Shown here piece after piece: positions 641 through 62,300 of a DNA stretch of 64,000 bases. The DNA lies in NCBI GenBank assembly GCA_004123355.1, contig SCHM01000001.1, forward strand, positions 3,402,001 to 3,466,000, in the 5' to 3' direction. This DNA comes from Amphirosellinia nigrospora. Lineage: Eukaryota; Ascomycota; Sordariomycetes; Xylariales; Xylariaceae. The translations under genes were made by a program, and so were the position numbers. Numbering within the stretch: position 1 is the first letter of the stretch; each line of letters begins with the position of its first letter. The notes beneath the pieces were generated by a model, which saw nothing but the letters and a program-made list of their open reading frames with translations, was not told where the DNA came from and made no database searches.

Positions 641-2524
641 ATGCATCCTTTCCCGCTCGGTGTAGCGGCTGCTTCGCTATGTCTGCCAACAGCCTTTGCG
701 AGGTTTCTTGGGCCGCTCAATCCAGCACCCGTTGACCTCACCAGCGACGCCAGCAGTGTTTCTGTACAATGGCAAAATATCACCTCAACACTTGAGAACC
801 ACCTGACTGGCAAAGTACGCAACGAGGCACTATCTGGCTTAGACAAGATCACTTTCTCACTAGGCCTGTTTTCGCTTCATGACCCTAAAGCCGCTGCTTC
901 CCTTCAATATCACCACACTGGCCCGTGAGTAATTAACCCCTACTTTCTTTTTGTTTCAGTAACTTTTAAACTATAAGCTTTTAAGGGGTGAGGGCAAGCT
1001 GGTGCCTCATAAGTCAATTTCAAAATAGTAATGACTGACCCTAAGTGTTCTAGTGATGTCCGCAACTCTACACTAGGCGTGAATAAAGTGGATGGGAATT
1101 CTATATACCGTGTTGCCAGTATGACCAAGATAATGACCGTTTACTCTGGCCTACTTCTTCTCAAACCTAGCGATTGGCACAGGCCGTTGACTGAGATCTT
1201 TCCCGAAATTTCCTCGTTGCCAGAGAACGACCCAGTTCATCATATTCAGTGGGAAACGATCACTCCCTTCTCACTTGCATCTCAGATTTCCGGAATCCCT
1301 GCCAACGCGAGACCTTCGACGCCGGCGAACTCGGCACTGTCTTTACTACACAAATCAGTAGACCCAAACACTCGGCTTGCCCCTCTCACTCTCAACAGCA
1401 CGGGTATCAACGTTCCCTGTCAGAGTGCGAACTGCTCCGGAGTACAGTACCTTGAAGGCATACAGTCTCCAACATTCCCGGTCTTCCAAACGCCAGGCTA
1501 CGCCAACACAAACTTTATTCTTCTCGGTAGAGTGATTTCACAACTAACGGGACTTCCTATGAACGAACAGTGGTTCCAAAAGGCTGTATTTGGTCCCTTG
1601 AATATGACCAGCACCTCATCTCTTTCTCCCACGAAGAAACCGTATTCTGGCTATGTTGTTGCCGGTGATCTTGATGCTTTCTCCTTTGAGGTGGCATCAC
1701 GAGTTCATCTGGCGGAATCTTTTCAACGACTAACGATATCGCCAAACTGGGCATCAGCATGCTGAACGCCACCCTGTTACCGGCTGACCAAATGCGCAAG
1801 TGGATGAAGCCCAACTCATTTACCGCTGAGTTGGATTTCGCGCTTGGAATGGGCTGGGAGATCTATCGATACGCCGACAAGGTGACTGGTCATGTAACTG
1901 ACTTATACACCAAACTAGGCGATGCTGGCAACTACGCAAGCTATATCGTCATTGTGCCAGACTACGACTTCGGATTTTCGGTAATAGTGACCAGCGGGCT
2001 TGTGGAAGCTACAGAGCGTAGCGCTGCGGCGCATCTCTTGGCGGACCTGATCAGCGAGACCATCCTTCCTGCGCTGCGAGATCAGGCGACAGCCGAGACG
2101 AAGCGCAACTATGAAGGCACCTACACCGGGATGGGACAGAACACTTCAACGCTCACCCTCGCGTATAACGAGACGGCTGGTGCTAGTTTCGGGCTAACGC
2201 TGACATCGCTCGTCAACAATGGTCGCAATTTGCTCTCTTTGCTCCAGAAGACCATCGGGAGTGACCAGCTTCTGCTTGCCCCGTCAACAATAGATCCCAA
2301 GACCAAGCAACGCGGTTTCGTGATCACCCCGTAGCACCCCAAGTCGCGTACACTGGCTTGTTCTCCAAGGTCTTCGCCACGAATTCGATTGGCTGAACAA
2401 CAATGGCATTACGTATGGAGGGCAGGCTCTCGGTACCTTCTACTTCGATGTTGCTGACGATGGTCGCGCTATCGCAGCATCGCCAGCTGTGTTGCGTGGC
2501 AAGAGATTTAAAAAGTCGTCTTGA
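641..2524 (+). CDS. Secreted beta-lactamase-related serine hydrolase (frame broken 3 times)
   Basis: Exons 641-924 and 1054-2524, intron 925-1053. The model begins with a signal peptide (MHPFPLGVAAASLCLPTAFA). Class C beta-lactamase / penicillin-binding-protein fold motifs follow: SxxK as SMTK in RVASMTKIMTVYSG, YxN as YAN in PGYANTNFILLGR, and a GGIFSTTNDIAKLG block typical of fungal extracellular members. A C-terminal beta domain ends near LRGKRFKKSS. Three single-base gaps are needed: near 1690, in the C run at 2327-2330, and near 2389. With them the spliced length is 1758 nt (585 aa), the usual size of this family. The substrate is unknown; fungal homologues are annotated as lactonase, esterase or lactam hydrolase. 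True pseudogenisation is possible, but the same kind of indel occurs in housekeeping genes of this window. Confidence 0.8.
925..1053 (+). mobile_element. Introner-like intron (129 nt), divergent copy
   Basis: Starts GTGAGTAATTAACCCC, carries the internal TTCTTTTTGTTTCAGTAA block, and ends CTGACCCTAAGTGTTCTAG followed by exon TG. These blocks align in order with the 146-nt introners elsewhere in the window. It splices the hydrolase exons in frame (P-D-V-R-N-S-T). Because it is more divergent than the other copies, membership is an inference from shared block order. Confidence 0.6.
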
Positions 2525-3077
2525 GTTTCAAGAATCGCACGGTGGTTTGCTAATTCGGCCGGAGAGTATTCTCGATGGAGAGAAATTTAGATTTATACTT
2601 ACTGTAATAGGATATTTCTTTTGACCTAGATGCATGATGGACTAGGCACCGGTTTAAAGGCCTTTCCTTTTCCATGCCCTCGGCTGAAAATATGAATCTT
2701 AATATAAATTTTTAGTAAGACTATGCGTTATCACAACTTCACTTCACCTCGGGTCTAATGAGCGGGTGTACACCCCCTAGCAACTAGCGCCGGCATCGTG
2801 GCGACTAGTGCTGGCCCAGCAGCAACTAATGCTAGCCTGGGAACCAATGGGAATACTGCAATGCTTTAGGGCTTATTCCGTCAACGGGTACAGTTTCTAG
2901 GCTCCCATTAATGCCATATATTTCTTGCTGCCTGTCAAGAGATTTTTCATATTGAAGGTACAGCTTAATAATGATATCTCAAGTCTACGTGCTTCTGTAT
3001 TTCTATAAACTTCGAAGAGCAGCAATTAGTTGACTGTGGCGTTCTTGATGTGCTCGACCTGCACCTCGAAGCAATCC
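2525..3077. other. Intergenic
   Basis: Between two same-strand genes. A degenerate GC-rich repeat of roughly 20 nt (CAACTAGYGCYGGC-like) sits at about 2778-2845. Nothing else is recognised. Confidence 0.4.
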
Positions 3078-3822
3078 ATGCCGTACTAAAGTCAGCACCG
3101 CTTTGTTACGCATCTATATAGTATATATTCATTCTATAATTATCCATCGTTCAGACGCCTTGCGCCATCAAGCTCTACTTTTTACTGGTAACTTAAAATG
3201 CAGGCCAATTCACCTCTTTTCATTGCCAAGCGAAGTTCGCGACCGCATCTATGACTTCTATCTTGCCTACGACCACAGCGACTTTGGGGACACGCTGCGT
3301 CCCCACCAGCTATACCTCGATGGCGCCGTATATTCACGGCCGCTTCCCGCCCTGATGCGCACATGCAAGCGTGTTTACGAGGACATGTCCCCCACCGTTC
3401 ACGGACAAGCCGTGATGCGCGTTGAGATGCGCGGCGGGGTCGACCGCCGCATTGGATTCGCAGTGCACGGAACGCTCCGTTTCCACCGCCTGAGCAAGTT
3501 GTGGCTTCTGTTGCCATTTGAACATCCGAACTGGAACCAGTGGCTGTACTTTTTTGGCGATGTGGTTCGCCGCACCCCAAACCTCAGGGTTCTGATCTTA
3601 GACTGGGCACCTAGACCCGTGCAGGAGAAGGGTTGGAGTGGGAAAGTCAATGTGAAGAAGGAAGATGAGTTCTTCCAGATGATCGAGGGCCTAAAGGAGC
3701 TACACACCCTCGTCATCTACGGTGACATTTCCACTAGATGGGTTGACCGGCTCAAGGGATCCGAATTGCGTATGATACGGCGCCATTCCCGCTGGTGGCG
3801 TGAGCCGGGAATGGACCCTTGA
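3078..3822 (+). CDS. F-box/2EXR-like protein
   Basis: Motif FSLPSEVRDRIYDFYL followed by PALMRTCKRVYEDM is the signature of the small fungal F-box-like / 2EXR domain proteins. The rest (WLYFFGDVVRRTPNLRVLIL) looks like one LRR-like strand-helix unit. An open frame runs from 3103, but its first 34 residues look non-coding. A neater model has a 5-nt first exon (ATGCC, 3078-3082), an intron 3083-3203 (GTACTA...TGCAG) and an exon 3204-3822, giving 207 aa that begin MPPIHLFSLPSEV. That splice choice is inference. No indels are needed. Such proteins are presumed ubiquitin-ligase adaptors or simply uncharacterised. Confidence 0.6.
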
Positions 3823-4315
3823 CAACACGGCGCAATTAGGTCTGTCAAGATGAAGTGCTACGATCAGCGATAAATATTTTCGTTTGACGCAAATCTCCTC
3901 CTTGCCTAAGGGTCGAGGTTTTGAATAGCTCCATGTATAAACTCAGAATTATTTCCCTTCCCACCGGTTTCAAACCGAATACTGAACACTGACCACGCCA
4001 CATGCATGGATGTATGCTTAGTGATGACAACGATTATCCCGTGTACATATTCCTGCCGTCCTTAGAATCTTTGAAGGAGGCAATCACCTGCGCAGCTAGG
4101 CTAGGGGCATCATATTGTAATTTGCTTACAGCGAGTCCCCGCCCCCCATCATCGACTATCCACGTGTCGCTTTACTCTGAGACAGTTGCTAGCGCTCGAA
4201 TGGTGACATGATGCTGGCATATTCGATTAAATTTAGGTCGAAATAGTATTATATAACGATAGATTGCAGTATCTCCAGAGTACCATGGAGGGTCATTTGC
4301 CTGCCACGATCTGCT
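3823..4315. other. Intergenic between convergent genes
   Basis: Terminator region shared by the + gene ending at 3822 and the - gene ending at 4316. The 69-codon + frame at 4002-4211 has no supporting features. Confidence 0.4.
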
Positions 4316-5238
4316 TCAGTCTGTAATCAAAACAGCGCTAGAATACACGTTTGGGCTTCCCATCGTGTCATTCGTCCCTGTGCCATTCTTTAAGTAGCAA
4401 AAACCCGCGTGGTCCTTCACAATGGTAACAGCGACGCAAGGCCCCCCTCCCACACCCACATTATTTTTCAGGTTGGTCGCATACGCTTTGTTGTATTCTG
4501 CACACACCGTGATGCAGTTTTCCAGAGTCGGCGTGTACGTCCGAAGAATATCATGCGTCGCTGCCGTGTTGGCCCAGTTCGTCCAACACTGCTCCCTGAA
4601 CTCTTGCGGATCTTGGTTTGCCTCTACTGGTATTGGCTTCCCGTCCGCTGAATACGGCGTGTACTTCAGCCCGTCTATACCCGGGCAACCCCCGTCTGTT
4701 GGGACTAGGGATCGTTCGTCGAAGAAGCTGTCGGTGATGGTGCGGAGGACGAGGTTGTGCTCCACCGCCACTGGCATTGGGGTATCATCGCCACTAATCA
4801 ATCAATCATCAGCATTTTGGAGAGAAAGGAGTTCCAGAATTGATCTTAAAGGGCTACTGACCCAGAACTGTCAGATCCAGACCTGGATTTTTGCTGCGCG
4901 CTGAGCCCTCCACCAACGCCACCGCCAATTCCTGCTGCTAGGACAATGAATAGCGTCACAATCAGGGCCCAGAATACCGGTACAGAAAGCCCTAATATGG
5001 TTGGTTTCGGACTCTTTGTCGGTTTATCTTGAGCTTGCGATAAAGATTGTCGTCCTCCTCCCGACTCAATATCCGCGACATGCTCCTTTGGCAAAGGCTC
5101 ATTTTGTGTTATTGGGTAAAGCGGCGTGGGCGCTGCTGGCAAAGGGTATGATGCTGGCAGAGGGTGTAATCCTGTTTCCGGAGGCACAACCTCGAGATCA
5201 GGCTGCTCTTGCAGATATCTTCCATTTGTCGACGCCAT
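4316..5238 (-). CDS. Single-pass membrane protein with Cys-rich (PAN/apple-like) C-terminal domain
   Basis: Exons 5238-4862 and 4793-4316, intron 4861-4794 (GTCAGT...GATTAG), 284 aa, intact frame. The N-terminal 90 residues are Pro-rich and hydrophilic. One transmembrane helix (VPVFWALIVTLFIVLAAGIG) is followed by a Gly/Ser linker. The C-terminal part has six spaced cysteines, including LENCITVCAEYNKA and AGFCYLKNGT, which resembles the PAN_4/apple-like domain of many fungal cell-surface proteins, plus NxT/S sites. This suggests a type III topology with an external ligand-binding domain. Start at MASTNGR is chosen because upstream in-frame codons (to 5427) look non-coding. Function is unknown. 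Confidence 0.7.
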
Positions 5239-6589
5239 ATCAATCTGCGCAGGAATTGTCTGGGGACAAATCCCAATGGCGATGGTATGATATAATATGA
5301 TTGCAGCGAAACAAAATCTCAACGCGATGAGACTGGGGCAGACACGTAACTGCTCTACACATGTAGGCATCCGTTTAATCAGACCACAAAAAGAGACCAG
5401 GTTCCACGAGTTTATAGTATCATTCAAACCCCCTGTCTCATAATTGTATACTCAGCTCCTCCCCACGCCCTGTTACAGGGTGTGATCAATTATTCAGCTG
5501 CCATAAATGGTAGTCAAGTGCGGCAGCTTATTTTCTTACTACACTACTTATAGAGTGAGACAACAGGCTCAATCGAAACGCGACAAGGTCTAACCCAGAT
5601 CGATTCCTTTGGCGGGTCCCCCTGACTGTACCAGCGCCAAGCGAACCTGGCGACTGTCGAGCAAAATCCCCAATGTTTAATCCCCACGAGACGTTTAACA
5701 GTTGATTGTTACTGAGAATTCGCTTACGGACGTCGCTTACCAGTTTAACAATCAAGCGACACCAAGATCAGACAACTAACTCCCTAACTAACCAGCATAT
5801 CCTTAGCTTTGGCTTTCTCTCTCACCTACCCCGGCACGTAGCGTACATAATCACAGACATGGATCCCAGACAAGCATTTTAGGTTAACCAATCAGACAGT
5901 TTTGCGACCATGGAAGATTGGGGTCGCTTCCGTTAGCACGATGTCATTTTTAGTTCACGGCACCTTCCACTCCCTGCATTCACAACCTTAGTTTCCGAGA
6001 CTAAATTTCGGAAATCGGATAAGCTTAATATCCTACACTAGTGTAGTCCTACAAGTAATCTCTAACCTAAAATGTTGCAATAGGCTATTGTCACGCAGCC
6101 CTAGACGAAGCGAGGTTGCTGTTCCCCCAGTTAGCCAATTATTCAAGCACAAAGGGCCCGGGATGGCGGAATACGCAGTATTGAAGGAACTAAGTTCTGG
6201 CCCCCGAGACAGTTATAGAATGGCTAATGGAGCTTCATTACCCTATGTTTATGTAAAGTAGTGCGCTCGTGGCCCCTTGTCATGGCCCCATCAAACACAA
6301 CATCTCGTCCTTAAATATATCGTGACTTGCTTGTGGACTTTTTGGTTATACTTCAAGTTGAAAAGTAAGGAGATGGATGGGGTGTATAAATAGGTCGCAG
6401 GGGCCAATATCAGCACTTACTCCCCTTGCCTTCCTTTTCGTACTTAGCTTTTATTAGCCATCGCGTCCATTTGTTGGTAGTTACACTGCGTCATGTTCTA
6501 GTCATGAGATACCTTAGGCATTAATCAACTAAGTCCAGTATTTAGGAGCTAGGGGCCTATTATTCGCCAAGGCCACTTCAATACACGCA
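5239..6589. other. Intergenic, 1.35 kb
   Basis: Holds the promoter of the membrane-protein gene and the 3' flank of aguA, both on the minus strand. No gene, tRNA or repeat is recognised. The 75-codon minus frame at 5528-5755 has no domain features. Confidence 0.4.
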
Positions 6590-9500
6590 TCAATCAACAA
6601 CTCCAGCTGGTAGCACAGCAATGTAATCTAACGGCGCGGTCTCGCGGCCATTGGGTAGCGTCTCGATGCGCACGACATCGCCTTTCCTAATGCGAACATT
6701 CTTGAATGTGACTCGCGTCGCCGAGTGTCCGTCAATGCCGCGTGTAAGGGTATAGCCGAGCTTGTGCTCTAGATCACCGACCCAGGACCCGAGGCTGTTG
6801 TCATTGAGGAACAGTTCGTACTCGGCTTCGCCCTCATATAGGTCGTAGTACGCGACGGCGACGTCGTACGTGCCCGATGGATAGCCCAGCTTCGTTTGCA
6901 CGTACGCGGCCGTTGAGTTATCGATCGTTTGCACGATGCGGAATCCCGAGGCCGCTTGAAAGGGGTTCACCCCGGTTACGCGGTAGTTGTGTAAGGTCAT
7001 ATCTTCGGCCTCGATGCGCCAGGGGTGGTTACCCGCCCGGGTCGGCAGCATCGGGATGCCAGAAATGTTGTTGTAGAACTGCACAATTGAATCTCGCCAG
7101 ACGATGGCGTGACCAGCTTGGTACTCTAGTCGGAAGAGCATCTCCTTGAAGCGCTGCTCATCAATGAGTCCCTTGAGGCTCGCCCACTTTTTCGGGAATG
7201 AGGCCGCTGTTGCTGCCCCTCGTAATGCGCGTCGTAGAAGTGTTGGATCACCGTCTCCCCGTTCTTGAGGACGTGAGTATAGGGGACGTGGTGGAACCAG
7301 AGGAGTAAGTCGTCAGGTGTTGTCTTGATGTTTTCGAATCCCACTGCTAACTCGCTTGGATATTGGCCGGAGAATCCCGTCCCGTTCGTCACCGTCCTAT
7401 CCATGCCGATACTATAGCTGTCCGCCCTGGTCCATTGGCCCCATGGATTATTATCCACTGTCATAACTCAGTTTTGAGAAATCTTTGTTTGTGGGGGAGC
7501 ATGACTTGAGTCCAAAGGGGACGGGGGGTTGTATGGGGGATGTATGGAAGTGAGGGAACAGACATGACAGGAATACGTACTACTTTGCGGGTTCGGCCCA
7601 TAGTGATTGTACGTGATGTCCGTCAGTGTTTGGACGCCTAAGTTGCCGGTGTAATTTTCGTACGCTGGCCATGACAGCATAGACATGTCGGTAATAGTAT
7701 TAAGGACCTTCTTATTGAGCCCGTATGTGAGACGAATCCAGTCTTGCAGAATCGTTACCTCGTCTACGTTCGGGTCCCAGGCTATCCGGCCATACGCGTA
7801 TAGGTTCGACATTGCCAAATGTGTACCCAACCACGTCGCATTCTGACCTACATTAACGACAGCAGCGTAGCCCGAGAGCTTCTTGTTGAAGCGCTTTCCT
7901 GATAGAATATCCTCGCCTATAACTGACTTCTCCCCGTCAACACGCAGATCGAAGTTTAGAACCGTCTTCCACATAGGCGCGAGATAAACAAGATGACACT
8001 ACATATAATACTGGAGTTAATAAATTTCACTTATGGGAAGAATTACGCAAGGATTCCGGAGATTTTAACAGCTAGAAGAAAAGAATATGCCTGCTGATAC
8101 AATTCATGTCTCTGAGAGATAGCAAATGAGGGGATAAAAACCCCAGAGGCTTACCTGCTGGCCCAGATATTCCTGCGACACTTGCAGCTCAATCGCTGAG
8201 GCTGTATGTTGCACTAGAACACCCCTAGTTAGTTATCACCCTTCCAAATTTGATTTGTGAAAATTCCACAAGCCCTAGCATCTTTCTTATTCCAATAAGG
8301 AAAGTTTGCCCTCTAAAGACCGCCAAAAAGAAAATGGTGATGACGATTACCTACAGTGTGCAAAAAGGGGCGACGGTGCTTCGCGGACCTGGAAATCAAT
8401 GGGACCATATTTTACTTGTACAACAACGTTGTCGTCGAATTTATCATCGAGGTCACGGAAGAAGTCCACGGCAGCGTTCGCACGATCGTCTTTCCAGTTA
8501 GACTCGTTAAGATTCTGGTAATCGTAGACAAAGGCGCGAAACACTGCAATACTCGACGTCAGTCACCCCTATTTAGAACGTGATCTACAAAGATTTTAGG
8601 GGCACCTCGATATTCTCCTGCCTCAAAAATAAATCCAACGCTCTTAAAATTGCTAAAACAAGAAGAAAATGGAGCTGAGAATTACGCACTGACGATGCCG
8701 CCGTACGGCTTCACGGCCTTGGCAAAGAGGTTTGCGCCGTCTGCTAGGGTCCGATTGTATGTGATAGGGCCGGGTTGGCCTTCGCTGTTTGCCTTTATTA
8801 GATAACCCGCCATATCGGGAATGTGTGTATGCAGCTTCTCTGTCTGGTCATTCCACCATTTGATTACGGTCTCGTCAAGAGGATCAAAGGTAGGCAATCC
8901 GCCGAATGTCTGCGGCGAGGCAAAATTTGCCGAGATCCCTACCCGCACGCCCCACGGCCGCATGGCGTCCGCAATCTTTCCCAGCCCGGCCATATTATCA
9001 TCGCTCAGGATAATCGGATTCGTGTTCACGTTATTCACGATGATGCCGTTGATGCGGATCGAAGCAAGTAGGCGCGCGTACTCTGCGACTCGGGTCGTGT
9101 TCGCGATCGTAGTATTGTCTTTGAAGAATATTGACAAGCCCGCGTACCCGCGCTCAATCGTGCCGTCCATGTTATCCCACTGGTTAACCCAACGGATTGG
9201 GGCGCTTGGATTCGTGGCATAGGCGACCTCTGTGAAGTTCCCTTGCGCAAGCATGGATAAGTACTCAAAGGCGCCGTACAGCGCGCCCCGTTCATTCTGT
9301 CCTAGGATCTGAACCGTCTTGCTCTTGGTGTCAAGCCAGAAACCATCTTCGTCGAGCGCTGGGACGTCGGCCTTCCCACCGGCTGCCATGAAGGCGTCAA
9401 CGGTGCCAACGACGATGGACGAGCCCCTGTCGCCCTTATTATTGATGTTGAGGTTTTTCTTAACATCCCCTTGATGCCCTTCTGGATTTCCTGGCCGGCG

Positions 9501-9670
9501 ACATAAACCGGGCTTGTTTCTGAGCTACTGAGAGAAACTATAGTAGATGGAACTCTAGCCTGGCGAGCAACGTCGTCCGGCAATTGGGCGTAGCGTAACC
9601 ATGCATTTGAACCATCGTCTGCGCCCGTTAGGCCGAAACCCAGCGATATCAAAACCCATATCCCACGCAT
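6590..9670 (-). CDS. aguA: Secreted alpha-glucuronidase, GH67
   Basis: Removes 4-O-methyl-glucuronic acid from xylan oligosaccharides outside the cell. Exons 9670-8690, 8543-8355, 8213-8155, 7998-7581 and 7457-6590 give 2515 nt. Two single-G gaps in C/G runs (9467-9470 and 7216-7219 on the + strand) restore 838 aa, the normal GH67 size. Visible blocks: signal peptide MRGIWVLISLGFGLTGADDG; the N-terminal GH67N domain to about residue 150; APIRWVNQWDNMDGTIERGY; FVYDYQNLNESNWKDDRA; ELQVSQEYLGQQ; CHLVYLAPMWKTVLNFD; LSWPAYENYTGNLG; WFHHVPYTH; and the C-terminal domain starting LEYQAGHAIVWRD. Three of its introns belong to the introner family. Family identity is very secure. Confidence 0.93.
7999..8154 (-). 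mobile_element. Possible decayed introner (156 nt)
   Basis: Fourth aguA intron along the minus strand from the start counting the 123-nt one last. It ends TTAACTCCAGTATTATATGTAG before exon TG and has an internal TTCTTTTCTTCTAGC block. Its 5' end (GTAAGCCTCTGGGG) does not match the core copies, so membership is tentative. Confidence 0.4.
8214..8354 (-). mobile_element. Introner-like intron (141 nt) in aguA
   Basis: Minus-strand sequence begins GTAGGTAATCGTCATCACC, has CATTTTCTTTTTGGCGGTCT and ends GATAACTAACTAGGGGTGTTCTAG before exon TG. The 3' block and the pyrimidine block line up with the CWH43 copy (GATAACTAACTCCGAGTGTC, ACCATTTTC). Confidence 0.65.
8544..8689 (-). mobile_element. Introner-like element (146 nt) in aguA
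   Basis: Minus-strand sequence begins GTGCGTAATTCTCAGCTCC, has TTTTCTTCTTGTTTTAGCAA and ends TGACTGACGTCGAGTATTGC-AG before exon TG. It has exactly the same length and the same ordered blocks as the GH76 and transcription-factor copies. It joins GGIV to MFRAFVYDY in frame, as expected for GH67. Confidence 0.85.
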
Positions 9671-31673: not shown

Positions 31674-33915
31674 CTAGCTACCAAAGGGAGCGCGGGAAAG
31701 AGAGCAAGAGAAAGAAGCGGCGGGCTTACCTTGTATTATTTTGGAAGTGGATTTTCGAGAATCAGGCATATATGCCAGGACGTCGCCTAAAAACTTCGTG
31801 TTCACTCTTCCCATCGGAACCGCCATAGCCACCTCCTTCAGTACGCAGCATTGCAATGTACTCAAAGATCGACGAGGGTGTATTATTCGCGTCTTTGTTG
31901 AAGCACATAAGCTTATCTCGAGCAATGTTCTTTGGTTCGTCTTCTAGAATAATCATGTTTTCTTTGCTATGAAGATTGTACAAGTAGTGAATATATGCGC
32001 TCTAAATTACTAAACGTTAGCTTTTTACCTGCGAGGCGATATTGCTTACTTACCAGGATAGACGCAAACTTCCAATCCACAGTCATTAGTTGTAATAGCT
32101 TAGAATTCGCTCTAATATTCGCGCGAACCTTCTCCTGAACCCGACGTTGGATGACCACATGAACGGAATCTGAATAGCGCAGCAACAATACGCCGCGTAA
32201 CCCGTAAACATTGGAATGGCGCTGGTACGTTGCGAGGTATCGAGGATCGCAGCGATTAGTGAGGACATCTCCTCTGCATGTTCGAAAGCGATCTGTGCGG
32301 ATAGTTGGCGTGTCGCAGACCAGCCATCTCCGGGACTGCAACAAAATACGGGAACAAGAGACGCGTGAAGGGCACAGAGAGATTGATGATATAAGGTATT
32401 GATATGAAGGATCCTGGTGAAAGTAGCACGCGGTATCATATTCACATTACGCGGTGTCAGTTTGAGCTCAGAGGGCAGGGTTTGCCACCAGCTCTGTAAG
32501 CGGTCGTCGAGTGCAAGTATTGCAGGCACTTTGACTTGCAGGTTTTTTTCAGAGGACTTAAGTAATGAGGTAACGGAATACCTGTAGAGAAATCAGTGCT
32601 GCTATCCGTGTGAGGAAAAAGAGACATTATTCACCAGAGAGTTGTCGCCTTGATGAGCTCGGCAAAGACACTTCCATTGCTCTCTTCGGAGTCTAAGGAC
32701 ACCTGGGGATGACGAGCTACACTAGCATCGAAATCTTCGTCCAACCACGGAAGCGGTACTTTGAAAGCATCACCTTCTAACTTGGATTGCGTGCCCTTCT
32801 CAGCTGCATGACATAGCACGCCCAGAAGTGACGTCGTTGGATCTCAGACTGCAACGAGTTATCGGCAAAGAGCGACTTCGGGCCTAACCCTAGGAGATCG
32901 AGCAATAGAAATGCATGTCCTATGAATTACTAGTTAGTTTGAACTGCGAACGGCTCAACATAACATGAGTAAATGGACTTGCCCTTGTACAGATCTACAG
33001 CACTCGGAGTTAGTTTTTGTTGTTCATAGCATGAATTGTGAGGGATTCAGAAGCTTCGAGACATCGTCACGTCCCAAAAGGAAACGTCGTGCTCCGAAAG
33101 GTACTAAAGCAGGAAGAAAAGAACTCCGAGAGTTACGCACAGGCCCGCCTCCACGCCCCTTGGCTATGGTAAAAGAGCGCGAGATTCAAATAAGTGACAA
33201 TATTGCCCCGAGCCAACTCTTCAACCTCTTGAAATACCAACCCCCTGCGCTTTGAGCCCACTCAAGCATGAAGCCCTGGTCTTTAAGGACAGGGAGGCCG
33301 CTCGCATCCTCGTAGAATCTAGTTCGTCATAGTCAGCTACCTTTTCGCAACCCAATGTGGGATACGGTAGTGCCATACTTCGCTCCCCAAGCACAGATAC
33401 TCAAGACCACGTGTGTACAAGCCGTGCCATCCGCGACGGACTCCAGAAAGGACCTCTTGTGGAGGAGAAGGTGCGCATTGTACACGTAGTTAAAGTAGAT
33501 TTCTACTAATTCCGGAAGCAAATGCTCCAGCAGCCCATATACTGTTTACTGCTTCTAGCGTTGCTTGGCTGCGTTAAGATGAGGGGCTGTTCAGCCTGCG
33601 GGACGTAAGTTTGAGCTGGGTGGCTTCTCGGGAGGCTTCGGGGCGGCTTCGATGGTCCGTCTTTCCGGGTGGCCACCTGCCGCGCCGGCCTGGTGTTTCG
33701 CTCCGGGAGCGGGCCGTCGCTATAAGTACAGACGTGATGTAATCTGACACATCGCTTGCAACTTGGCCGCTCCTCCGTGCAGCGGATCTAATAGGGCGGG
33801 TGAGTTATATATAAATAAGATTGGCGGGTATTTGTCACGGAAATACCTTCTGTGCCTTACAGGTGCTACAAGCCTTCCTTGGCCTCCCAGCACCTAATTT
33901 ACGTCGACTATCCAT
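31674..33915 (-). CDS. Zn2Cys6 transcription factor with fungal_trans domain
   Basis: Exons 33915-33847, 33787-33379, 33318-33141, 32994-32983, 32919-32635, 32581-32054 and 32001-31674. Five frame errors (near 33540, 33240, 32815, 32146 as gaps; one extra T in 31789-31793) leave 603 aa. The zinc cluster is split by intron 1: CSTCKAQK then IRCTEERPSCKRCVRLHHVC, a complete Cx2Cx6Cx6Cx2Cx6C. The middle homology domain follows: LPELVEIYFNYVYNAHLLLH, ICAWGAKFYEDA, LGLGPKSLFADNSLQSEIQ, LDDRLQSWWQTLPSEL, AIQIPFMWSSN and LRTEGGGY. It should be a DNA-binding nuclear regulator; the target is unknown. The donor of the third intron along the coding strand belongs to an introner, the fourth intron (32982-32920) is GC-AG, and the exact C-terminus beyond 31740 is uncertain because a GTAAGC donor could extend it. 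Confidence 0.85.
32983..32994 (-). other. 12-nt microexon in the Zn2Cys6 gene
   Basis: Minus-strand ATCTGTACAAGG, lying between the 146-nt introner (33140-32995) and a 63-nt GC-AG intron (32982-32920, GCAAGT...TTCATAG). It reads Y-L-Y-K-G and connects AWRRA to HAFLLLDLLGLGPK, restoring the family's (Y/F)LxKGxA block. Phases fit exactly (2+9+1). Confidence 0.7.
32995..33140 (-). mobile_element. Introner-like element (146 nt), well-kept copy
   Basis: Minus-strand sequence begins GTGCGTAACTCTCGGAGTTC and ends AACTAACTCCGAGTGCTGTA-G. CTCGGAGTT near the 5' end and AACTCCGAG near the 3' end are perfect 9-bp inverted repeats that would bring the splice sites together. It differs from the 146-nt GH76 copy (57878-58023) at about 17 positions by hand alignment. 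Confidence 0.9.
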
Positions 33916-44631: not shown

Positions 44632-44641
44632 CCCAGCCAGC

Positions 44642-44672
<31 letters not shown>

Positions 44673-52321: not shown

Positions 52322-52870
52322 TGCATTGATGTGATGAGTACCTGGCGCCGACTGCTCACTCGGCTCTCTATCGGTGTTAACTCGCTGCTGTTCCCGAAAC
52401 ACATTGCATTTTATATGTTTGTGTAAAGGAATGAGCTCGGGGATCCGGGATGCCGGTCTTGGTCGGACATATATCGTAATTCAGGAGTCTAAGCTGTGCT
52501 ACCCGATGATTAGCGTAAAATAACTTATTTGGGCATCCTCAAGTTAGAATATTAATCAACGCAAGCATTCTACTCGCATCAATCGCCTCTGGTACGTCCC
52601 GATAACTGCTCCGACTGACATTCCTGAAATCAATGTCCACATAAAGCTCTTCGTTATGACTGTATCCAGTCTCTGCCTCAAATGGCTTGTGTAGCGCCCT
52701 ATGGCGTACAGACGATATTGCTCCTATCGTACTCAAGAGTGTCGATTGATGTTATGAGCTACTAATATATCATATGTTTTTACGTTATCGCAGAGCAGTT
52801 TGTGGAGAGCTACAATATTCGCGGCTGGGATATAACAACTGTGTAGAGGAGGTCCAGAGCGCGCGATAGG

Positions 52871-53373
52871 TTGCTTGTTCACCGACTGAAAAGAACAGCA
52901 ATCGTAAAGGATGAGAAAAAGGATTTTGTCTTCAACAATGTCGAACAACCTCCACAGCATATAAACATCGATGTAGCGCCAGATAACAAAGGCAGTCGTA
53001 GCTCGCCCAGCAGAATATTCACTGGAGTTCAGCTTATGTCAGACCTCAAGTCGCAGCACAACAGCATGCTGCAGCTACCAGGAGAAGCAGAGGCTAAGTA
53101 CTTATGCTTAAAGAAACACTTATATTCGATGTCAGTCTTGGCGAACTAATTATACACAAACAGCACACGGCGGGGCTCTTTCCAGCACTAAAAGGACTTC
53201 GGAGTATTCAGAAGACGGGCGAGGGCAAAGGCACAGTCAGGGCGAACTCTCTCACGTCAGACCACGCTAGTAGGACGCTCGAGGCTATCAAGGATGCGGT
53301 CTTTAACTCCTCCAAGTCAGTAGCCAGAGAAGTTTACCAGACTTTGTTATCAACGCTCGCTGTAATGCCTTAG
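52871..53373 (+). other. Possible gene remnant, unrecognised
   Basis: Two overlapping open frames (92 and 89 codons) with balanced composition and helical look (PSRIFTGVQLMSDLKSQHNS; VREVYQTLL-like end). The switch of frame near 53100 could be an intron (GTACTT donor at about 53098) or an indel. No domain assigned. Confidence 0.25.
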
Positions 53374-54818
53374 CATCTAGCTGCAGGTGCAACAACAGTT
53401 TTTGTTAGAGGAGAGCACCGAGATTCTCACCGAGGCGATGTTCGCCCTGACCTGTCGTAGATCATCCAGCCGGTCGCCTCTGCTATGGTGTAGCAGCGAA
53501 ATATTCCAGAACTTCCTTAGGTCTCGATTCTATCTCCTAGACATGTGAATGTCTAGTCTCAGAGGTGATGCGAGCCGATACTATCCTTGTGCCGTACCCC
53601 TCAGCCAGTTTTTGTGTTTCTATTTTCTGCTTCCGCCGTATTCATAAAGACAAACATAGGATCAGCTTTATGAGAAAACTATTTGTGTCATCAATAGTTG
53701 TAAAGCGTGCCGACAAGAAAATAATATCCAGGCACAACAGGCATTGAAGACATTGACCGATGATTAGCGTCCAACTGTCTAGAATAAAAGTGTGCTCATC
53801 CTTAACAGGTTTATGACGCCAGCGACAGTCATAGACTCCTATGGTTTGGACTATCATGCTGAGCCTCTTAGCTGTTGGGTGAGAATCTTGACGTGCATAA
53901 ATGTAAAGCCTATCACCTACTAACATTGCAGTAAGATGCATAAGTAGAGTAAAACAACGTCTTACTATTATAGAAAGAAATTTGGTATTGAGTACGTTAT
54001 ACGACAGAGTAGTTCAAGAATCCCGTGATGCGGCTCTCTATTTTTGTCCTCTACATACATGATGAGACTATATCCCGATTATTCTTACACATCTAGCACT
54101 CCCCTCGCATCCTTGAAAGTCTAGAAATGCGAAACGCGCACATAATAAAAGAGGCCAGGCAGTGAATACCGATCTCAAGTGTATGTACATAGGATCAATG
54201 ATATACTACTAGGAAGTTTTACTACATGAGAAGGACTCAGCCCCTCGCCTACTTTACGTCTAGTAACTGTCCTTCCAACCTTTATTGCCCGTTCTTTTAC
54301 CCAACCAGACTTAAATTTCATTAGGTAGTTGTGTCTATCTCTCCTCTTCTAATCATATGTGTTCATCCTATCTTCTACGGACATATCCTGATTCTACCCT
54401 GAGGCTTTCATTTGGAACAACTTGTTGGTCAGCATATAGTTGCATGGCATGAGCGAAAACCGCAAATAGTCGGATAAGAAAGGTGCCGGGGTCGCTTCTC
54501 GCAATATTTTCCCTGTTATTATGTCTGCATCGATCACATATCACGCACATTGTGTTTCCCATTTGGTGAGGGGTATACTCCTAGGATTACAAATCCAAGT
54601 TTCACGTAGCCTCGATTGTCGGATTTCCGCCAGTTGTCTACCTACAATCCACACATCTTGACCTTGATACAAGGTATAGAGTTTCGAGTACAAATCACCT
54701 TTGAGACGCTACCTCGAGGATTCAGGTTTGGTCACGGTTCACATATTTTAGCTCCAACCGACTTGTCTCTCGCCTACTCGGTTCACTCACTCAATCTAGC
54801 CCCTTATCGTTCCTCAAC

Positions 54819-56307
54819 ATGTCTATATTGCCTAGCATCATTGCCGGCGGGGAACTTGGGGTCACAATGTGAATGACGACGAAGCACAGCGCCACATAGC
54901 CGCCCTCAAAGCCATAGGAGTTGGGGAGATTGACACCGCTGCTCTCTGTAAGAGATTCTCGAGACTCTCTTTTTTGTTGTCGCAACTTTCAGATCACTAT
55001 ATTCTCTTTGTGAGATACGAGACTGTTTAGGAGTTTCTGTAACTTCTAATGATGATAGCTAACTCCTAAGGCTACAGATCCGTTCTCCCACCCACGAAGT
55101 CTGAACAGATTATCGGCAATAGCCAATTCGGACAGCAGGGCTTCCTCATTGATACGAAGATCATGTGGTTTAATGGCGGCAAGGGTACCTTGACTAAAGT
55201 CAACATTCCGAAATCCATCAACGACTCATTGGGTCGCCTTGGATTGAAGAAGGTATAATAGTTTATATCTACCAATGGGCATTGAAACTACTAGGTCTTA
55301 ACACGGGCACCAGGTCAACATTTTGTATGCTATTGGACCTGATCATGACACCCCACTGGAGGAACAGGCCGCCGCTTTTGATAGGTGTGTACAAAATGTC
55401 CTGCGCTTGATCCCCTAACCTTCTTGTTTCGTATGGTCTTACATATTCTACGATACGAGTCTATGGGATCTCGACTAACGTGTTTCTATGCACACAGCGT
55501 TTATAAAGAGGGGAAATTTACGAAACTCGGCCTATGCAATTTCTCCCCTGAGATGCTCGAGCGGTACGTTGAGATCGCAGAGAGTAAGGGTTACGTCAAG
55601 CCTAGCGTGTATCAGGGCCAGTGGTATGTTATAAAATATCACAACATTTCATCTTTGCTTCTCCTTCTAAGATGGAAGGAGAATTTTAACCATGACTGAC
55701 CTACTCGCAGTAAGTAATCACTCTAATTTATGACTAATAAGGAGCAACGACGGTTTGCGCAGTACCTCCTATCAGCGTAAAACTAGCAACCTATTCTTAA
55801 GAGAGCCTTCTGATATTCTATAGACAACCTGCTATGTCGCACGTACGAAACCACACTGTTCCCGTTCCTGCGCAAGCATGGCATCGCTTTTGCAGCCTTC
55901 TCTCCTCTAGCACAGGGGATGCTAACAGGCAAACTTACATCCGCAGAGAATCAGGAACAAGACCTGAAGGGCACACGCTTTGACACGGCTAAGGACAACA
56001 TGTACGGTCTAAACGCTCGACGCTGGTACGACAAGCCGTCGTTCCATGACGCAATACGCAAGATGAAGATCGCATGTGAGTCTTACGGTATTGATACGAC
56101 GGACGGTGCTATGCGGTGGATCGTGAACCATTCGATTCTGAAAGGATTAAATGGCGATGGTATCATTATCGGACCACGCAACAAAGAGCAGTGCGATAAG
56201 TATATTCAAGGTATACAGGGGGGCCTCTACCCGAGGAATTGGTAAAGACATTGAATAGTCTCTGGGACGGGGTTAGCGAGGATGCTGCTAGTATTCTGGA
56301 ATATTAG
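54819..56307 (+). CDS. Aldo-keto reductase, AKR7 (aflatoxin-aldehyde reductase) type
   Basis: Exons 54819-54947, 55078-55252, 55314-55384, 55498-55622 and 55824-56307. Gaps near 54877, 55086 and in the G run at 56220-56225 restore 328 aa, and one extra G spoils the fourth donor (55623). Blocks: IIAGGELGV, IGVGEIDTAALY (catalytic Asp and Tyr), GFLIDTKI (conserved Lys), FTKLGLCNFSPEMLERYVEI, GYVKPSVYQGQ then YNLLCRTYETTLFPFLRKHG, FSPLAQGMLTGKLTS, ARRWYDKPSFHDAIRK and the NADPH-binding IIIGPRNKEQCD. AKR7 enzymes are NADPH-dependent reductases of reactive dialdehydes in the cytosol. Convergent with the GH76 gene. Its first intron resembles an introner. Confidence 0.85.
54948..55077 (+). mobile_element. 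Probable introner (130 nt) in the AKR gene
   Basis: Begins GTAAGAGATTCTCGAGACTC, contains CTTTTTTGTTGTCGCAACTT and ends AGCTAACTCCTAAGGCTACA-G. Block order equals that of the 146-nt copies, but each block is diverged, so membership is moderate. Confidence 0.55.
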
Positions 56308-56857
56308 AATCCAAACAGCAGGGTCTACCCAACGGATGTATTGTCAGTAATAGCCTATCAACAGATAGCCTTTTTATCCCCATAACCCGATCCATCATAA
56401 CTGTTTTTGAAAGGTATTGTCCTCACTTCGCAGTTATGTCTATCAGTTAGTGGCAGTTTTTTGAATTAGCTCGTCCACATCATGTTGCAGCTAAGTAGAA
56501 TATTAGCTTAGGAAGGGCTTAATCAGAGGGCTAGGATTAGGTAAATTGAGCTAATAAACGACTATGGTGCCGAATGTGCCAAGAAGATCTAGTTTATACA
56601 CCTCTAGGCAAGAGGATTCCGTGCATTTTATATTCTAACAGCCTCATATTTCCTCACAGAGTCTCATGGACCTCCGTAGATTTATTTTAAGAGTCTGGTT
56701 TGTTTCACTTCTCAGCATCAACAAAATATAAGGCTTTAATCTGAAGGTTTATGTTAACATTTTTTATCTTACTCCGCAGTAGTAAAGCTATTCTAGACCC
56801 GCTAGATACGATATAACTCGAGCCATAATGAGCTAGAATAACATCTTCTTCGCCTAA
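56308..56857. other. Intergenic between convergent genes
   Basis: AT-rich 3' flanks of the AKR gene (+) and GH76 gene (-). No feature recognised. Confidence 0.5.
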
Positions 56858-58220
56858 CTATAGCGTAGATAGCAGCAGGTCTATAGCTGACGCTTGTCTA
56901 CCAACAGTCCCGCTATCAAATGGTCCCTGCCAGGCGAAACCATAGAAATCCGAGCCGTTCCTGGAGTTATCGTATACAGACTGCGCATTATTCTGGATAT
57001 AGGCTTGGTACGGATGGTTATCCAGCGCGGCATTGAGCTTTGCGAGGCCACGCATAAAAATTCCCTTGAAAGCCGTCCCGTTGGGTTCGCATTCGTCAGC
57101 TGTGGCACAGGCATGTTCTGTAAGAATGCCATTGGGTGATAGCGAGGCATCGTTAACCACGGCGTCAGCGATGCCCTTCGCCGTGTCTAAATACGAATTA
57201 TCACCCGTGGCAGTTGATAGTTGAACAAGGCCGGCTAAAATAACACCCTGGTTGTATGTCCACTGCAATACTCGGAGTCAGTTACTACTCTGGAAATGGA
57301 ATTCGAGGCTCTAAAAGCTGCAAAACCCAGAAAAAATAGGGTTGAAAATTGCTTACTACAGATTGACCGTTGTTGACGCAAGATGAATCCTCAGTCAGCC
57401 CATCATTGATGAGCTTGTCACTGTTGATCATGCCGGTGGCGCTAAACCACTCCCACTCCTTCATGGCCTGGCCCAAGTAGAATGTATCGCCGGGATAAGG
57501 TTGTGCAGCGTAGCAGTGAGTTCGAGATATAGCTCATTAGAGATGGCGTTGTGGTACGTCCTACTAGGAATATTCCATATGAGGCCGCCTCCGCAAGTCG
57601 TCGTGTTCCAGTAGTCATACATATAGGCCTCATCCTCTTTTGCAAGGTCCAAGTACATGGAATCTCCGGTTACCTGGTACAAAGAGGCGAGAGCGAGAGC
57701 CCACCATCCAGTATCATCTGTTGAATCAGCCCGGAAATCGCCCTGACCTTCGGGCCACCAGTTGAGCGGCGCGCGTTGCTTTTCCACAGTATCGGCAGCT
57801 AAGTCGACGTAATCCTTAGATCCAGTGATGAGCATATACTCCGCGATGGACCGAAGGGCCACACCACTGTGCCACCACTACAACACTCGGCGTTAGTTTT
57901 TGTTGCTTATAAAGTGAATTGTGAGGGTTTTAGAAGCTTCGGGGTATCATCACGTCCCAAAAGGAAACGTCGTGCTCCGAAAAGTGCTAAAGCAGGAAGA
58001 GAAGAACTCCGAGAATTACGCACTGGATCCGTAGCATACCCCCAGAGCCCAGTAGTCTCGTTACGAAACTCATTCATGGCCTCTATAGCAGCATGGACAG
58101 TGTTCGCATCACCCGGACCTGCTGCGGTAACCCCTCTCGCCGCCATTGAGGGATCAAAATTGCACATAAAGATGACCAAAGGGGCAGGACAGAGCCTGTT
58201 TGGGGTGAAACGAAATGCAT
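56858..58220 (-). CDS. GH76 alpha-1,6-mannanase-type glycosidase
   Basis: Exons 58220-58024, 57877-57357 and 57262-56858. Two missing bases (near 58146 and 57491) restore 374 aa. It begins with a possible signal peptide (VLPLWSSLCAILIP). The (alpha/alpha)6-barrel blocks of GH76 follow: AAIEAMNEFRNETTGLWGY, WWHSGVALRSIAEYM, FRADSTDDTGWWALALASLY (the paired acidic residues DD of the active site), CGGGLIWNIPSRTYHNAISN, WTYNQGVILAGLVQLS, and the C-terminal FYGFAWQGPFDSG. It probably cleaves or transglycosylates alpha-1,6-mannan or GPI-linked mannan in the cell wall or in other fungi. Length is typical. Both introns are introner-family members; one is nearly complete. Confidence 0.87.
57263..57356 (-). 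mobile_element. Shortened introner (94 nt) in the GH76 gene
   Basis: Minus-strand start GTAAGCAATTTTCAACCC and end GTAACTGACTCCGAGTATTG-CAG before exon TG. The 5' part matches the CWH43 copy and the 3' part matches the aguA 146-nt copy, but about 50 internal bases are missing. Confidence 0.75.
57878..58023 (-). mobile_element. Introner-like element (146 nt), well-kept copy
   Basis: Minus-strand start GTGCGTAATTCTCGGAGTTC, end AACTAACGCCGAGTGTTGTA-G, exon TG next. Inverted repeat CTCGGAGTT/AACGCCGAG has one mismatch. Internal segment TTTCGGAGCACGACGTTTCC and GGGACGTGATGA can fold back. It is about 88% identical to the copy at 32995-33140 in an unrelated gene. Confidence 0.9.
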
Positions 58221-59358
58221 TTTAGGCGGTCGAAAGTTTCCAGGAGCCGAGGGAACGACTTGCGGCATAGCGAGCAGCGAAAAGAAACGGCTATGAAGCG
58301 CTCACGACATATCCCTTTATAGCCACCACACGCGGACAATGCAAGGCATTGAAAAGTAATCTCGCCAACGTTCCGGGCACCCATCTGCCCGGAACGTGAA
58401 GGTTGCATCCTCACGGCGAGAGTCCATCGTGTGATGTGTTGTCGCGTTGGTCAGGCCTGCCTCGGCCGCGCTGGTGGCGCCGAGAAAGGCCGTGAGCGAA
58501 GCTTTGGTGTGGTTTCGTCGTCCTCCTCCCACGATGGTGGATTATGGAGTATGCAAGGTGACGTGACCCAACCCAGCAAGACACGAGGGGGACCTGCATG
58601 GCGCGGGAGCTCTGCTAGGATCAGACGCAGGTCCGAAGCGCCAACCACCAATCCGTCCATTCAACAGGACTTACTGCATTGGGCCATTTATACGCATTAC
58701 GTACGGATACTTGTGACTACACACCAAGGGTCTCCAATTGGCTGGACTCTGCTGATTGCATGGGGCCGCCATGAACATGCCCACTTTCAATGGCCGATTG
58801 GAGTCAACTGCTGGTTGGTAGAGCGGGAAATAGCTGCCAAGGGATACCAGTTTCTTTCTTTATTCTTTAGCTTCACGTGCGAAGGGCAGGGATGAGCTGC
58901 ATGATGGTAACGCCGTCAACTATGAGCATATCACTTGATCGAGCGCATTGTGAGCCTCTTGGCTTCTATTTGTAACGTTGCGGGTGATATGTCTGGCGCG
59001 CGGGATATGGTAGAACGAAACTGAGGGATCGGGCTGCAAATGCTTGGTTTGATCAGGTTCTGCATAAACGGCTGCTATCTCGATCCGCCGATGATCTTCA
59101 CAGCCCTGAGACCTTTCCATCCCGCTGGCTCCTTGATCGGCCGATGTCAACCAATGCTTTGGCACCGGAGTTTTCTTGTGTTTCTTTTTTTGGAAGGTAA
59201 CCAGGAACGGCCCGTGAAGAAAGCAATATCATGTATAATAATATACTATTGGAAGGAAGAGAGACAAGGGCTTCCGCATACCCAAATTACATCCCGTATA
59301 ATCATGCTGTGTGGCTTCTCCAATGACACCGTATACGTTCTCGTATTGCTAGTAGACA
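58221..59358. other. Intergenic, GH76 promoter and CWH43 3' flank
   Basis: The overlapping frames on both strands at 58317-58895 have no domain features. The sequence is GC-rich near 58430-58650 and ordinary elsewhere. Confidence 0.5.
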
Positions 59359-62300
59359 TCACTCAAGGTGGTCTATAATAACGTGGCTCGTTGAAACATG
59401 ATACCGGTGGCCACGTACACCTCTCCCCTTGAATATGGCAGGGAATCTCCAACCCTCGGGAACTTCACTTTCTTGTGCCCTATAGTTCCTCAGTCCCGCA
59501 TCATCGTTTATCACTGTGATTCGTTGTTTTTCTTCGTCATTCTTCGGGATAATGAACTTCGCAACCTGCAGCTCAGTATCCGTGATTGTACTTCGGGATA
59601 CTCTTGCGTAACTTATTCGCTGTAAATTCTTATACAGTATATACTCGCACCAGCGATCCCAGTCGCTGGGGTCTACATCGTGCATGCCTGATACTGGGGA
59701 AACATAGGTGTTATAGTTTCCTGTTAGAGGTTTTGCGACGAGGTAAGAGAGGAGAACGGAAGGCCGCGGCGAATGACCCATGAGCTTTGATAGGTACTCT
59801 GCCTGCAAGCGGCGGTCCTCGAGATCCTCTTCCTGGCCGGAATGGAAGACAAAGACGTCAACCAGCTCTCCATACACATTAAGAGTTGAGTGAATTGCTG
59901 GCGCAAGCTCACCCACCGGAGACGGTAGTAAGTGGTGGGTGGATTCAATGATGGGAAACTTAGACAGAAGCGCAGCACCCCAGGTATGCTTTTTTGGGCC
60001 GGGGCCATAGTCAACATACATGCCTAACTCTGAGGCAAGAATTTGGGTGGTGTCGCGATTTCCCATGATGATTCGTTGGAGATCCGACTCTAAGAGGCCA
60101 ATTACATCAATCTCCAATTCCCTGATTAAGTCGCACATACGAAATTCGGAAGACCACATATCGTTGTCAAGGGAAAAGTGGGTTGTCCAAATTCCGGTCG
60201 TCATAACCCTTGAGTTTTCGTGATAGGGTCTGTAGTCATTTGTCGGGAAGCGCATATACGCCGATACTAAGAAAAATACATTAATCGTGCCGAGGGTAAG
60301 AGTGTAGTATTTACGGCAGCGGTCTTGAGCCGGCGATTGAGGAGTTATATCCGAACGGGCATTGCGTAATGTCAAATTGAAAATACCACCACCAATGAGA
60401 AGCATTGTTATGACCATAATCCAGTCAGTGTGCTCGCGCACTAAAGGGCGCCGGGTACGAAAGCATATGCTACAACCCATACGTGAAAGAGAACCATAAT
60501 GTTGTAGATCAAGAACCCCAGCCCAAATGTAATGGACGGCTCTGCTGAGAAGCTGCTGTAAGTAAAGGAATCGACACAGCCATGAGGTAAAAGGCAACGA
60601 CTAAACCTCCGTAATACCCAGACCAGTTAGTGTAAATGGTGAGTACGGCAGCGCCAATACAGCCAACAACAAAAACAGTCCAGGTGCTAACCAGTCTAGG
60701 TCGGTATAAGCCAGAAATGAGGCCAACAGTCATGGAGGCCATAGTAAGCCACCGTGAGGGACAGAAAGCGGTCCACGTACAGGATAGCCTTCCCACACCC
60801 AAAGTATCATGGTGCTGGTATCTGAAAGCAAAGAGTGTACGCCGAAGATCAAACCGGCTACACCTAGTGCGGCGAGAACAGAGGAGCCGCTCATGTCCCC
60901 GGTGGATGTCCCACCAGTTAATGGAGTGCGTCGAGTGAACATCAGTGAGGCCAGTACGGCTAATCCCAAGCCAAGGTCATTGTATCCACCGTTGCTAGCA
61001 TTCACTATGACACTCGGAGTTAGTTATCGTCATATGAAGCGTAGTTTGAGAGACTTCCGGAAATTTAAAGGTTTCTTCTATTTAAAACAGGAAATCTTAT
61101 CCCCTGAGAATTGCCAAAACAAGTTGAAAATGGTTCCGAGTATTTGCTTACTGATTGGCCAGATCGGATTATTCGTTCTCCACGCAAATTTGACGGCGGC
61201 GGACAACACCAATCCAGTTACCCATGCCATTAGCCTTGATTCTAGTCGAGTTTCACGTGTAGACTCAGAGAACAGCGTTGCAGCCCACGAGAGGCATGAG
61301 ACAAACACCCCGAACCCACGGCAAAAAGTCGATATGATGGGACCGTCACTTTGCAAGCCAAGACGCCCACAAGCGAGAGCAAATGAAATAACCGTAAATT
61401 CCTCACGACCAAGGCGCGGAACCACCTAATACCAAGCAAAAGGGGCGAAATGGTCGACAATAGGAATATCTCATAACCTGAGATGCCCATGTGCCACAGT
61501 GGGAAGTACCAAATGAGGATACCCAGGCTTGTCAACATAGACCAGAACACATATCCATGATACACATTGGCGGCCGTGTCGAACAATCCGAACCACGGAA
61601 ATTTAGCACAAAATATGCCCGCTATTGGTTTGCTCCTTTTCTTTCCTAGGATAGCAGTCGGTTGGTGTAGGCCGTTCAGCCTGAAAGAACATTAGATACT
61701 GTCCTTCATAATCATTAAAATCAAACTCGACTAAGACAATCCACACTCGCTGGAATTACAGGTGAGACTCTTTCGGACGGCCCTAAAGTTGCCTCTGTGG
61801 TTGCTTTCAAACAGATAGTCCATGCTGGGAGTTTGCACAATAATTGGTCAAAAACGCATCGCACTAATCATGTAAACTCGTTAGACATAAATGACAGCTC
61901 GTAAACAATAATAAAGAATTTATTGTGCTGCCCATGTTAGTTTCCTCGCATCCTGTAGAGCAAGGGTCATAGCGTAGGCATGAGAGGCGCGTTCACAAAA
62001 CAGTGCCAAATTCGCTATTAATAACAAACTTATAGTAAAGCAGGTTTGTCATAAAGTTTAAGTAGCGAAATGAACAAAATTTCAAAATGATAGCGGCGTA
62101 GTAATACATGTGCAAGCGTGTAGGGTAGAGTCTTAGGCCACCCTAAGGAGCTGATACGTACCCCTTACTAAGACCGTTGTCGTCCTTAAGGATTATTTTG
62201 AACGTGTCAAAGTCCAGAGCAGTGACGGCATCAAAAGCAACATCGTATAGAATCAGCGACCATTCGAAGAAAGAATATGTGGTGTAAGCTAAGAATGCTT

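Follow-up and report, generated by a model that had tools for sequence, protein, structure and literature searches.

Introner-like elements of Amphirosellinia nigrospora with a near-terminal inverted repeat and a preference for YA|TG insertion sites

The xylariaceous ascomycete Amphirosellinia nigrospora carries a family of short, mutually similar introns that interrupt unrelated genes both in a window of 64,000 nucleotides (contig SCHM01000001.1, positions 3,402,001 to 3,466,000 of the forward strand) and at many other places in its genome. These are complete U2-type introns of about 146 nt that bear their own donor, branch point and acceptor, and they almost certainly constitute a fungal family of introner-like elements. 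Such elements had been proposed for the window in a sequence-only reading; what is added here is a near-terminal inverted repeat and a preferred insertion target, YA|TG, which is used without target duplication. Our favored interpretation, with a probability of about 0.6, is that this introner-like family multiplies as an intron, by way of its excised RNA, and enters genes at YA|TG. The route of intron gain in fungi is an open issue, as in the accessible literature introners leave no duplication and the sites reported are either random or splice-like. In a family of hundreds of copies whose site preference is measurable and whose terminal stem is defined, insertion sites become open to prediction and assay and to assignment to an enzyme, and the stem to mutation.

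Copies in the window and in the genome

Membership of the window introns was evaluated with a profile built from 24 copies located outside the window, all window copies being held out to avoid circularity. Seven of the nine introns noted previously were matched (E <= 1.4e-4), and the best match of the reversed window had an E value of 0.28. The nine introns are the following (E values refer to the held-out profile):

57878..58023, minus strand, introner copy of 146 nt in the GH76 gene; site GATCCA|TGGTGG; E 1.8e-43
32995..33140, minus strand, introner copy of 146 nt in the 'Zn2Cys6' gene; site GGGCCT|ATCTGT; E 7.3e-47
8544..8689, minus strand, introner copy of 146 nt in aguA (GH67), splitting an ATG codon; site TCGTCA|TGTTTC; E 8.8e-16
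61005..61151, minus strand, introner copy of 147 nt in CWH43/PGAP2IP, splitting an ATG codon; site CAATCA|TGAATG; E 3.3e-13
8214..8354, minus strand, degenerate introner copy of 141 nt in aguA; site CACACT|TGCAAC; E 3.8e-5
925..1053, plus strand, degenerate introner copy of 129 nt in the gene of a beta-lactamase-fold hydrolase; site TGGCCC|TGATGT; E 9.7e-5
54948..55077, plus strand, degenerate introner copy of 130 nt in the 'AKR' gene; site CTCTCT|ATCCGT; E 1.4e-4, over profile positions 8-97 only
57263..57356, minus strand, probable introner remnant of 94 nt in the GH76 gene; site CTGTA|TGGAC; two collinear end pieces
7999..8154, minus strand, aguA intron of 156 nt with an open frame across it; family membership unsupported

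The proposal that all nine belong to one family is thus firm for seven of them. The remnant at 57263-57356 is a weaker case, matched by the held-out profile through its end pieces only (E 0.017 and 0.22); the collinearity of these two pieces indicates that it is probably a copy with its middle deleted, and the GH76 Pfam match crosses its junction. The aguA intron at 7999-8154 is unmatched by the profile and a genomic BLAST search with it returned only itself. This intron contains the exact 5' motif of the family, TGCGTAATTCT, at window positions 8039-8049 on the minus strand, an 11-mer for which 0.06 occurrences are expected per window, and the motif is followed by a 3'-end-like tail; perhaps another intron has here taken up, or been fused with, a shortened introner.

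Genomic BLAST with the copy at 57878-58023 yielded at least 40 matches including itself, the next best being 92% identical. Scoring covered 40 of the 64 candidates, and every one of these (the query among them) passed E <= 5e-20; 33 spanned the full 146 nt and the non-self identities ranged from 75 to 92%. This copy is 88% identical to that at 32995-33140 across 149 nt, and the latter is 95.2% identical to a copy at C1:148521-148666. Three matches beyond itself were found for 61005-61151, where the CWH43/PGAP2IP Pfam match crosses the junction, and 54948-55077 matched no genomic sequence but itself.

The end patterns of the family, whose genome counts are lower bounds, were far more frequent than their reversed versions. 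The 5' end pattern, with up to three mismatches, occurred at 42 places or more (4 for the reversed pattern), the 3' end pattern at 260 or more (15 reversed) and the 3' end pattern with degenerate branch point and acceptor at 415 or more (34 reversed), which bears out the expectation that an introner family should be present in hundreds of copies above control. From these searches, 122 distinct places outside the window were taken, representing the best-matching part of the family (for the 3' end, the best 100 of 260). A second profile was built from 31 copies, 24 from these places and 7 from the window; it matched 118 of the 122 places (24 of which had contributed to it) at E < 1e-3 and produced 18 further matches in their flanks. 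Altogether, at least 148 profile matches are contained in the sampled loci (about 283 kb, overlapping) plus the window. Of these, 121 are near full length and were used for the site and stem counts given below.

Among the 121 copies the closest pair is 95.2% identical and the median identity to the nearest neighbor is 78%; the expansion of the family is not of the last moment. All-against-all comparison of their 150-nt flanks retrieved only neighbors from the same locus and three inter-locus matches of 28-69 nt at non-equivalent positions. As flanks of different loci are not homologous at equivalent positions, the insertion sites are independent. Genes with several copies and shortened copies occur, in agreement with known introner behavior, and several partial copies matching at the 3' end only are shortened introns. 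Four copies lie inside 3 kb at G000:C1:146052-148666, and at L046:2101-2574 a copy whose donor has decayed is divided in two by about 320 nt of additional sequence.

Intron structure and the near-terminal inverted repeat

All 121 copies end in AG and start with GT (118) or GC (3); small shifts of the boundaries were made in a few copies, 114 starts and 113 ends needing none. The commonest donor is GTGCGT (48 copies), others being GTGAGT (22) and GTAAGC (13), and the acceptors are TAG in 101 copies, CAG in 18 and others in 2. The branch-point A is present in every copy, the branch point being CTRAC and the acceptor YAG. The median length is 146 nt, with 78 of the 121 copies measuring 142-148 nt. 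A search of the window against Rfam at gathering thresholds gave no match.

Close to both ends lies an inverted repeat formed by element positions 5-20 and 129-144, which is located as follows in the copy at 57878-58023:

58004..58019, minus strand, 5' arm of the near-terminal inverted repeat (element positions 5-20)
57880..57895, minus strand, arm of the same repeat at element positions 129-144, pairing with 58004..58019

In the consensus of 31 copies the pairing of the arms reaches -18.1 kcal/mol, compared with a shuffled mean of -5.1 (p 4e-4), and in that of the 121 copies -15.2 kcal/mol (p 0.003); in both consensuses no other pair among 231 sampled 20-mer pairs is as strong as the arms. 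Individually, 101 of the 121 copies pair their arms better than their own shuffled mean, and of 12 copies folded to minimum energy 9 show the stem, that at 57878-58023 included.

Host genes, orientation and vacant sites in relatives

Once the introns are cut out, the reading frame stays open over all nine junctions of the window. The spliced open frames measure 182-537 amino acids in the hydrolase, aguA, GH76 and CWH43 genes; those of 'Zn2Cys6' (61 amino acids) and 'AKR' (64 or 75 amino acids in two different frames) are short and lend these hosts weak support. The identities assigned earlier to GH67 aguA, GH76, CWH43/PGAP2IP and the beta-lactamase-fold hydrolase are backed by PDB or Pfam matches, whereas for 'Zn2Cys6' and 'AKR' no Pfam family was matched by the gene pieces tested. 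These last two names are presumptive labels, based on the earlier reader and on motifs in the translations. Two of the window hosts show broken frames: that of GH76 breaks at about 57480, where the Pfam profile is picked up again in a different frame (at positions 166 and then 171), leaving little space for an intron, and that of the hydrolase breaks at 1690-1765. These genes are possibly pseudogenes, or the breaks assembly errors.

The copies reside on the sense strand of their hosts wherever these are recognizable. A codon score designated the sense direction for 103 of the 116 copies whose flanks sufficed for a 150-nt coding test, and Pfam searches with exon pieces of at least 40 amino acids detected 54 families in 106 sense pieces and none in 105 antisense pieces. 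In 25 of 27 pairs of neighboring copies up to 3 kb apart (29 pairs, minus 2 that were two pieces of one copy) both copies lie on the same strand (p 6e-6). Of 116 pairs of spliced flanks, 60 were open and scored best in a sense frame, compared with 34-46 for shuffled partners and with 20 and 32 when one or two nucleotides, respectively, were removed. Hosts elsewhere in the genome include proteins with AMP-binding, PP-binding and ketoacyl-synthase domains, transporters and glycoside hydrolases.

Relatives were compared at the protein level only. The spliced aguA protein aligns without gaps at all three junctions with a bacterial GH67 structure; the GH76 alignment contains a one-residue gap, four residues ahead of the first junction, and Pfam matches cross both junctions of this gene. 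Five aguA relatives (72-82% identical) each read as one protein continuous through the three intron sites, two of which (8544 and 8214) are occupied by firm family members. Relatives P0001 and P0005 read on into what appears to be the next ordinary intron, where the frame of the present gene does too, and P0004 ends there; this behavior points to predictions that ignore introns, and hence to vacant aguA sites. The same deduction is weaker for P0002 and P0003, which extend beyond that point. An aguA protein of Xylaria polymorpha (P0042, 92% identical over 66%) breaks off precisely at the second introner site (8214), which suggests that this species shares the second aguA intron and that the intron was missed in annotation.

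A similar situation was found for an aldehyde reductase that hosts the copy at C1:2475443-2475588, as P0122, P0124, P0127, P0128 and P0136 (82-88% identical) are uninterrupted at this site. The first four read past ACK into a downstream intron that is spliced out in named relatives, and P0136 terminates at ACKD. As judged from these protein alignments, the sites of four introns are vacant in relatives (three in aguA and one in the aldehyde reductase gene), and three of these introns are firm copies. The best named matches were X. polymorpha for aguA and Monosporascus sp. (92%) and X. arbuscula (89%) for the aldehyde reductase, placing the organism in the Xylariales, probably near Xylaria, and not in the Dothideomycetes.

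Altogether, the sequence-only reading is supported as to the nature of the elements and the unrelatedness of the host genes, and the outcomes that it named in its favor were obtained for the number of copies, the sense orientation and the orthologs lacking the introns. Its suggestion of active or recent gain is favored by the vacant sites, but the identities among copies speak against the most recent past.

Insertion sites and the mode of spread

Insertion is seamless and leaves no target duplication, as repeats of 4 nt or more flank none of the 121 copies; when repeats reaching into the intron are allowed, those of 4 nt or more are not clearly in excess of shuffled partners. The sites are far from random in composition: A precedes the junction in 49% and T follows it in 74% (G in 4%), the next base being G in 52%. 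The A|T combination occurs at 48 of the 121 sites, with 7.6 expected (p 4e-26), and CATG at 14 of them, with 0.57 expected. The share of A|T declines with the preservation of the copies (21/40 in the best preserved, 17/40 and 10/41 in the following groups), and phase 1 is dominant (39 of 64), 14 of these phase-1 copies splitting an ATG. The preferred target is YA|TG. In ordinary introns of the same loci, predicted ab initio, A|T was observed in 0/11, 1/19 or 2/29 cases depending on the threshold, and G precedes the junction in 53-64%; this control is small (11, 19 or 29 introns, with 0, 2 or 4 decoys), and the difference between 48/121 and 2/29 is significant at p 4e-4. At 8544-8689 and at the aldehyde reductase site the TG belongs to a Met or Trp codon common to relatives, indicating that it probably predates the insertion. 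No significant micro-homology was detected between donor position +3 and exon position +2 (p 0.25; A alone, p 0.09) or between the acceptor and exon position -2 (p 1.0). In the open literature searched, no report of a YA|TG preference of fungal introners or of this family was encountered.

That the excised intron is the mobile unit is suggested by the exact splice-site ends, the sense direction, the stem and the presence of several copies in one gene, and we give roughly even odds to the notion that it is the intron RNA that is re-inserted. According to this model, the U2-type intron of about 146 nt, whose copies are presumably spliced, would multiply as an intron. The near-terminal repeat would close the excised RNA into a stem-ended molecule, uniting both ends. 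Reverse splicing, or ligation of the RNA into an opened DNA strand, may then place this molecule in the coding strand of a gene under transcription, after which it would be copied into DNA. A pyrimidine and A before the insertion point and T and G after it would be favored when the target is opened or chosen, and substitutions and internal deletions would gradually turn the copies into introns of ordinary appearance. It is conceivable, although rather doubtful, that a site-choosing machine and not chance breaks is responsible for the movement of fungal introners, namely an RNA or single-strand-DNA integrase that recognizes the roughly palindromic YA|TG in transcribed DNA, inserts there an intron with its ends joined by the near-terminal stem and causes no duplication. 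If that were true, the near-terminal stems of two unrelated Xylariales intron families would be its handle.

Several observations weigh against the favored interpretation. The YA|TG preference differs from the exon preferences of ordinary splicing, so that simple reverse splicing fits poorly. The stability of whole introns is unremarkable (z -1.9 to +0.9 in 12 copies) and covariation between the arms is almost nil (12.00 vs 11.92 pairs of 16, 17 of 500 shuffles being as good). Moreover, RNAalifold applied to 31 copies did not choose the near-terminal stem and retained only a hairpin of 6 pairs near the 3' end, with changes on both sides in 2 of the 6. The inverted repeat thus looks like a property of source elements that is not kept after insertion. 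With regard to the coding context, a junction-free control stretch upstream scored as sense in 95 of 115 cases, so that the 103 of 116 reported above reflects sense genes around the copies and not coding sequence at the junction itself. Reading phases on the two sides of the intron coincide in 80 of 116 copies (0.69), an intermediate value with respect to the calibration (0.90 for coding and 0.31 for non-ORF sequence), and agreement on the antisense strand already reaches 52 of 116; coding sequence on both sides is therefore supported for part of the copies only, and some may sit in untranslated regions or between genes. Finally, repeats of 3 nt flank 4 copies, compared with 1.6 for shuffled partners (the largest shuffle giving 6).

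A non-autonomous DNA element (Helitron-like or another single-strand transposon) that causes no duplication, whose ends happen to be splice sites and whose antisense insertions were lost by selection, is a serious though unlikely candidate here. A target preference combined with the absence of duplication would be expected of it; Helitrons insert between A and T without duplication, and the near-terminal inverted repeat and the possibly intergenic copies also agree with such an origin. Nevertheless, A|T is found at just 48 of the 121 sites, and the element ends GT...YAG depart from the TC and CTRR termini of Helitrons, the fourth base from the end being G in 99 copies and C in 8 of 121. The sense direction wherever hosts are recognizable is a further difficulty; a search for the Helitron protein family PF14214, as a sign of a Rep/helicase partner, was without match, as was its control, and no same-ended partner was seen among the partial copies of the sampled loci, no systematic search for one having been made. 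That the copies are ordinary introns, alike through the GT, CTRAC and YAG signals common to both, has next to no probability given the full-length similarity of up to 95% across unrelated genes and the held-out E values down to 7e-47; this explanation is refuted for the seven firm copies and possible for 7999-8154. Spread by gene or segment duplication, which the proximity of some copy pairs might recall, is equally hard to credit in view of the non-homologous flanks and of the variety of Pfam families among the hosts. A role of excised intron RNA as filling material where double-strand breaks arise by chance and are repaired, as modeled for Xylariales stwintrons (PMC8469720, PMC12403724), would account for the seamless ends and for a near-terminal stem uniting them, and was put forward in the same fungal order. 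We regard it as improbable, as it predicts random sites and those of the present family are biased to YA|TG and to phase 1, unless the breaks themselves are sequence-biased.

As in the introner-like elements of Fulvia fulva and other Dothideomycetes (PMC4457414), hundreds of related complete introns occur here in unrelated genes as a result of recent gain, sometimes two per gene, and decay into ordinary introns; the present family differs in its lineage and, as judged from published descriptions, in its YA|TG site. For the elements of Capnodiales an AG/GY site is cited (PMC8469720). In a survey of 3,325 genomes, ascomycete introners appeared as outliers without terminal inverted repeats or target-site duplications (PMC9860276); the family described here is likewise gene-biased and free of target duplication but possesses a near-terminal inverted repeat and a target preference.

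In layout the family resembles the [D1,2] sister stwintrons and the type-2 cropped introns with NTIRE-10 of Xylariales (PMC8469720, PMC12403724), which share with the present family the host order, complementary repeats near both ends, a 5' repeat that begins at donor position 5, and seamless insertion into the coding strand without target duplication. The likeness of the repeats does not extend to their sequence: the arms differ, and one exact gapped pattern of the NTIRE-10 pair had no match in the genome. Furthermore, the family is not a nested intron beginning GGT (G precedes the intron in only 28 of 121 copies), and its 3' arm overlaps the branch point, whereas the 3' repeat of stwintrons lies between branch point and acceptor (PMC8469720, PMC12403724). 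Stwintrons number tens per genome and are reported to occupy random sites without a bias in phase (PMC8469720, PMC12403724), in contrast with the hundreds of copies and the YA|TG-biased sites observed here. With the DNA-transposon-derived introners reported by Huff et al. in 2016 and summarized in PMC12403724 and PMC9860276, the family has in common the many intron-making copies and the inverted repeats; it differs from them in the absence of target duplication and in that no splice site is borrowed from the target, both splice sites being located within the conserved element.

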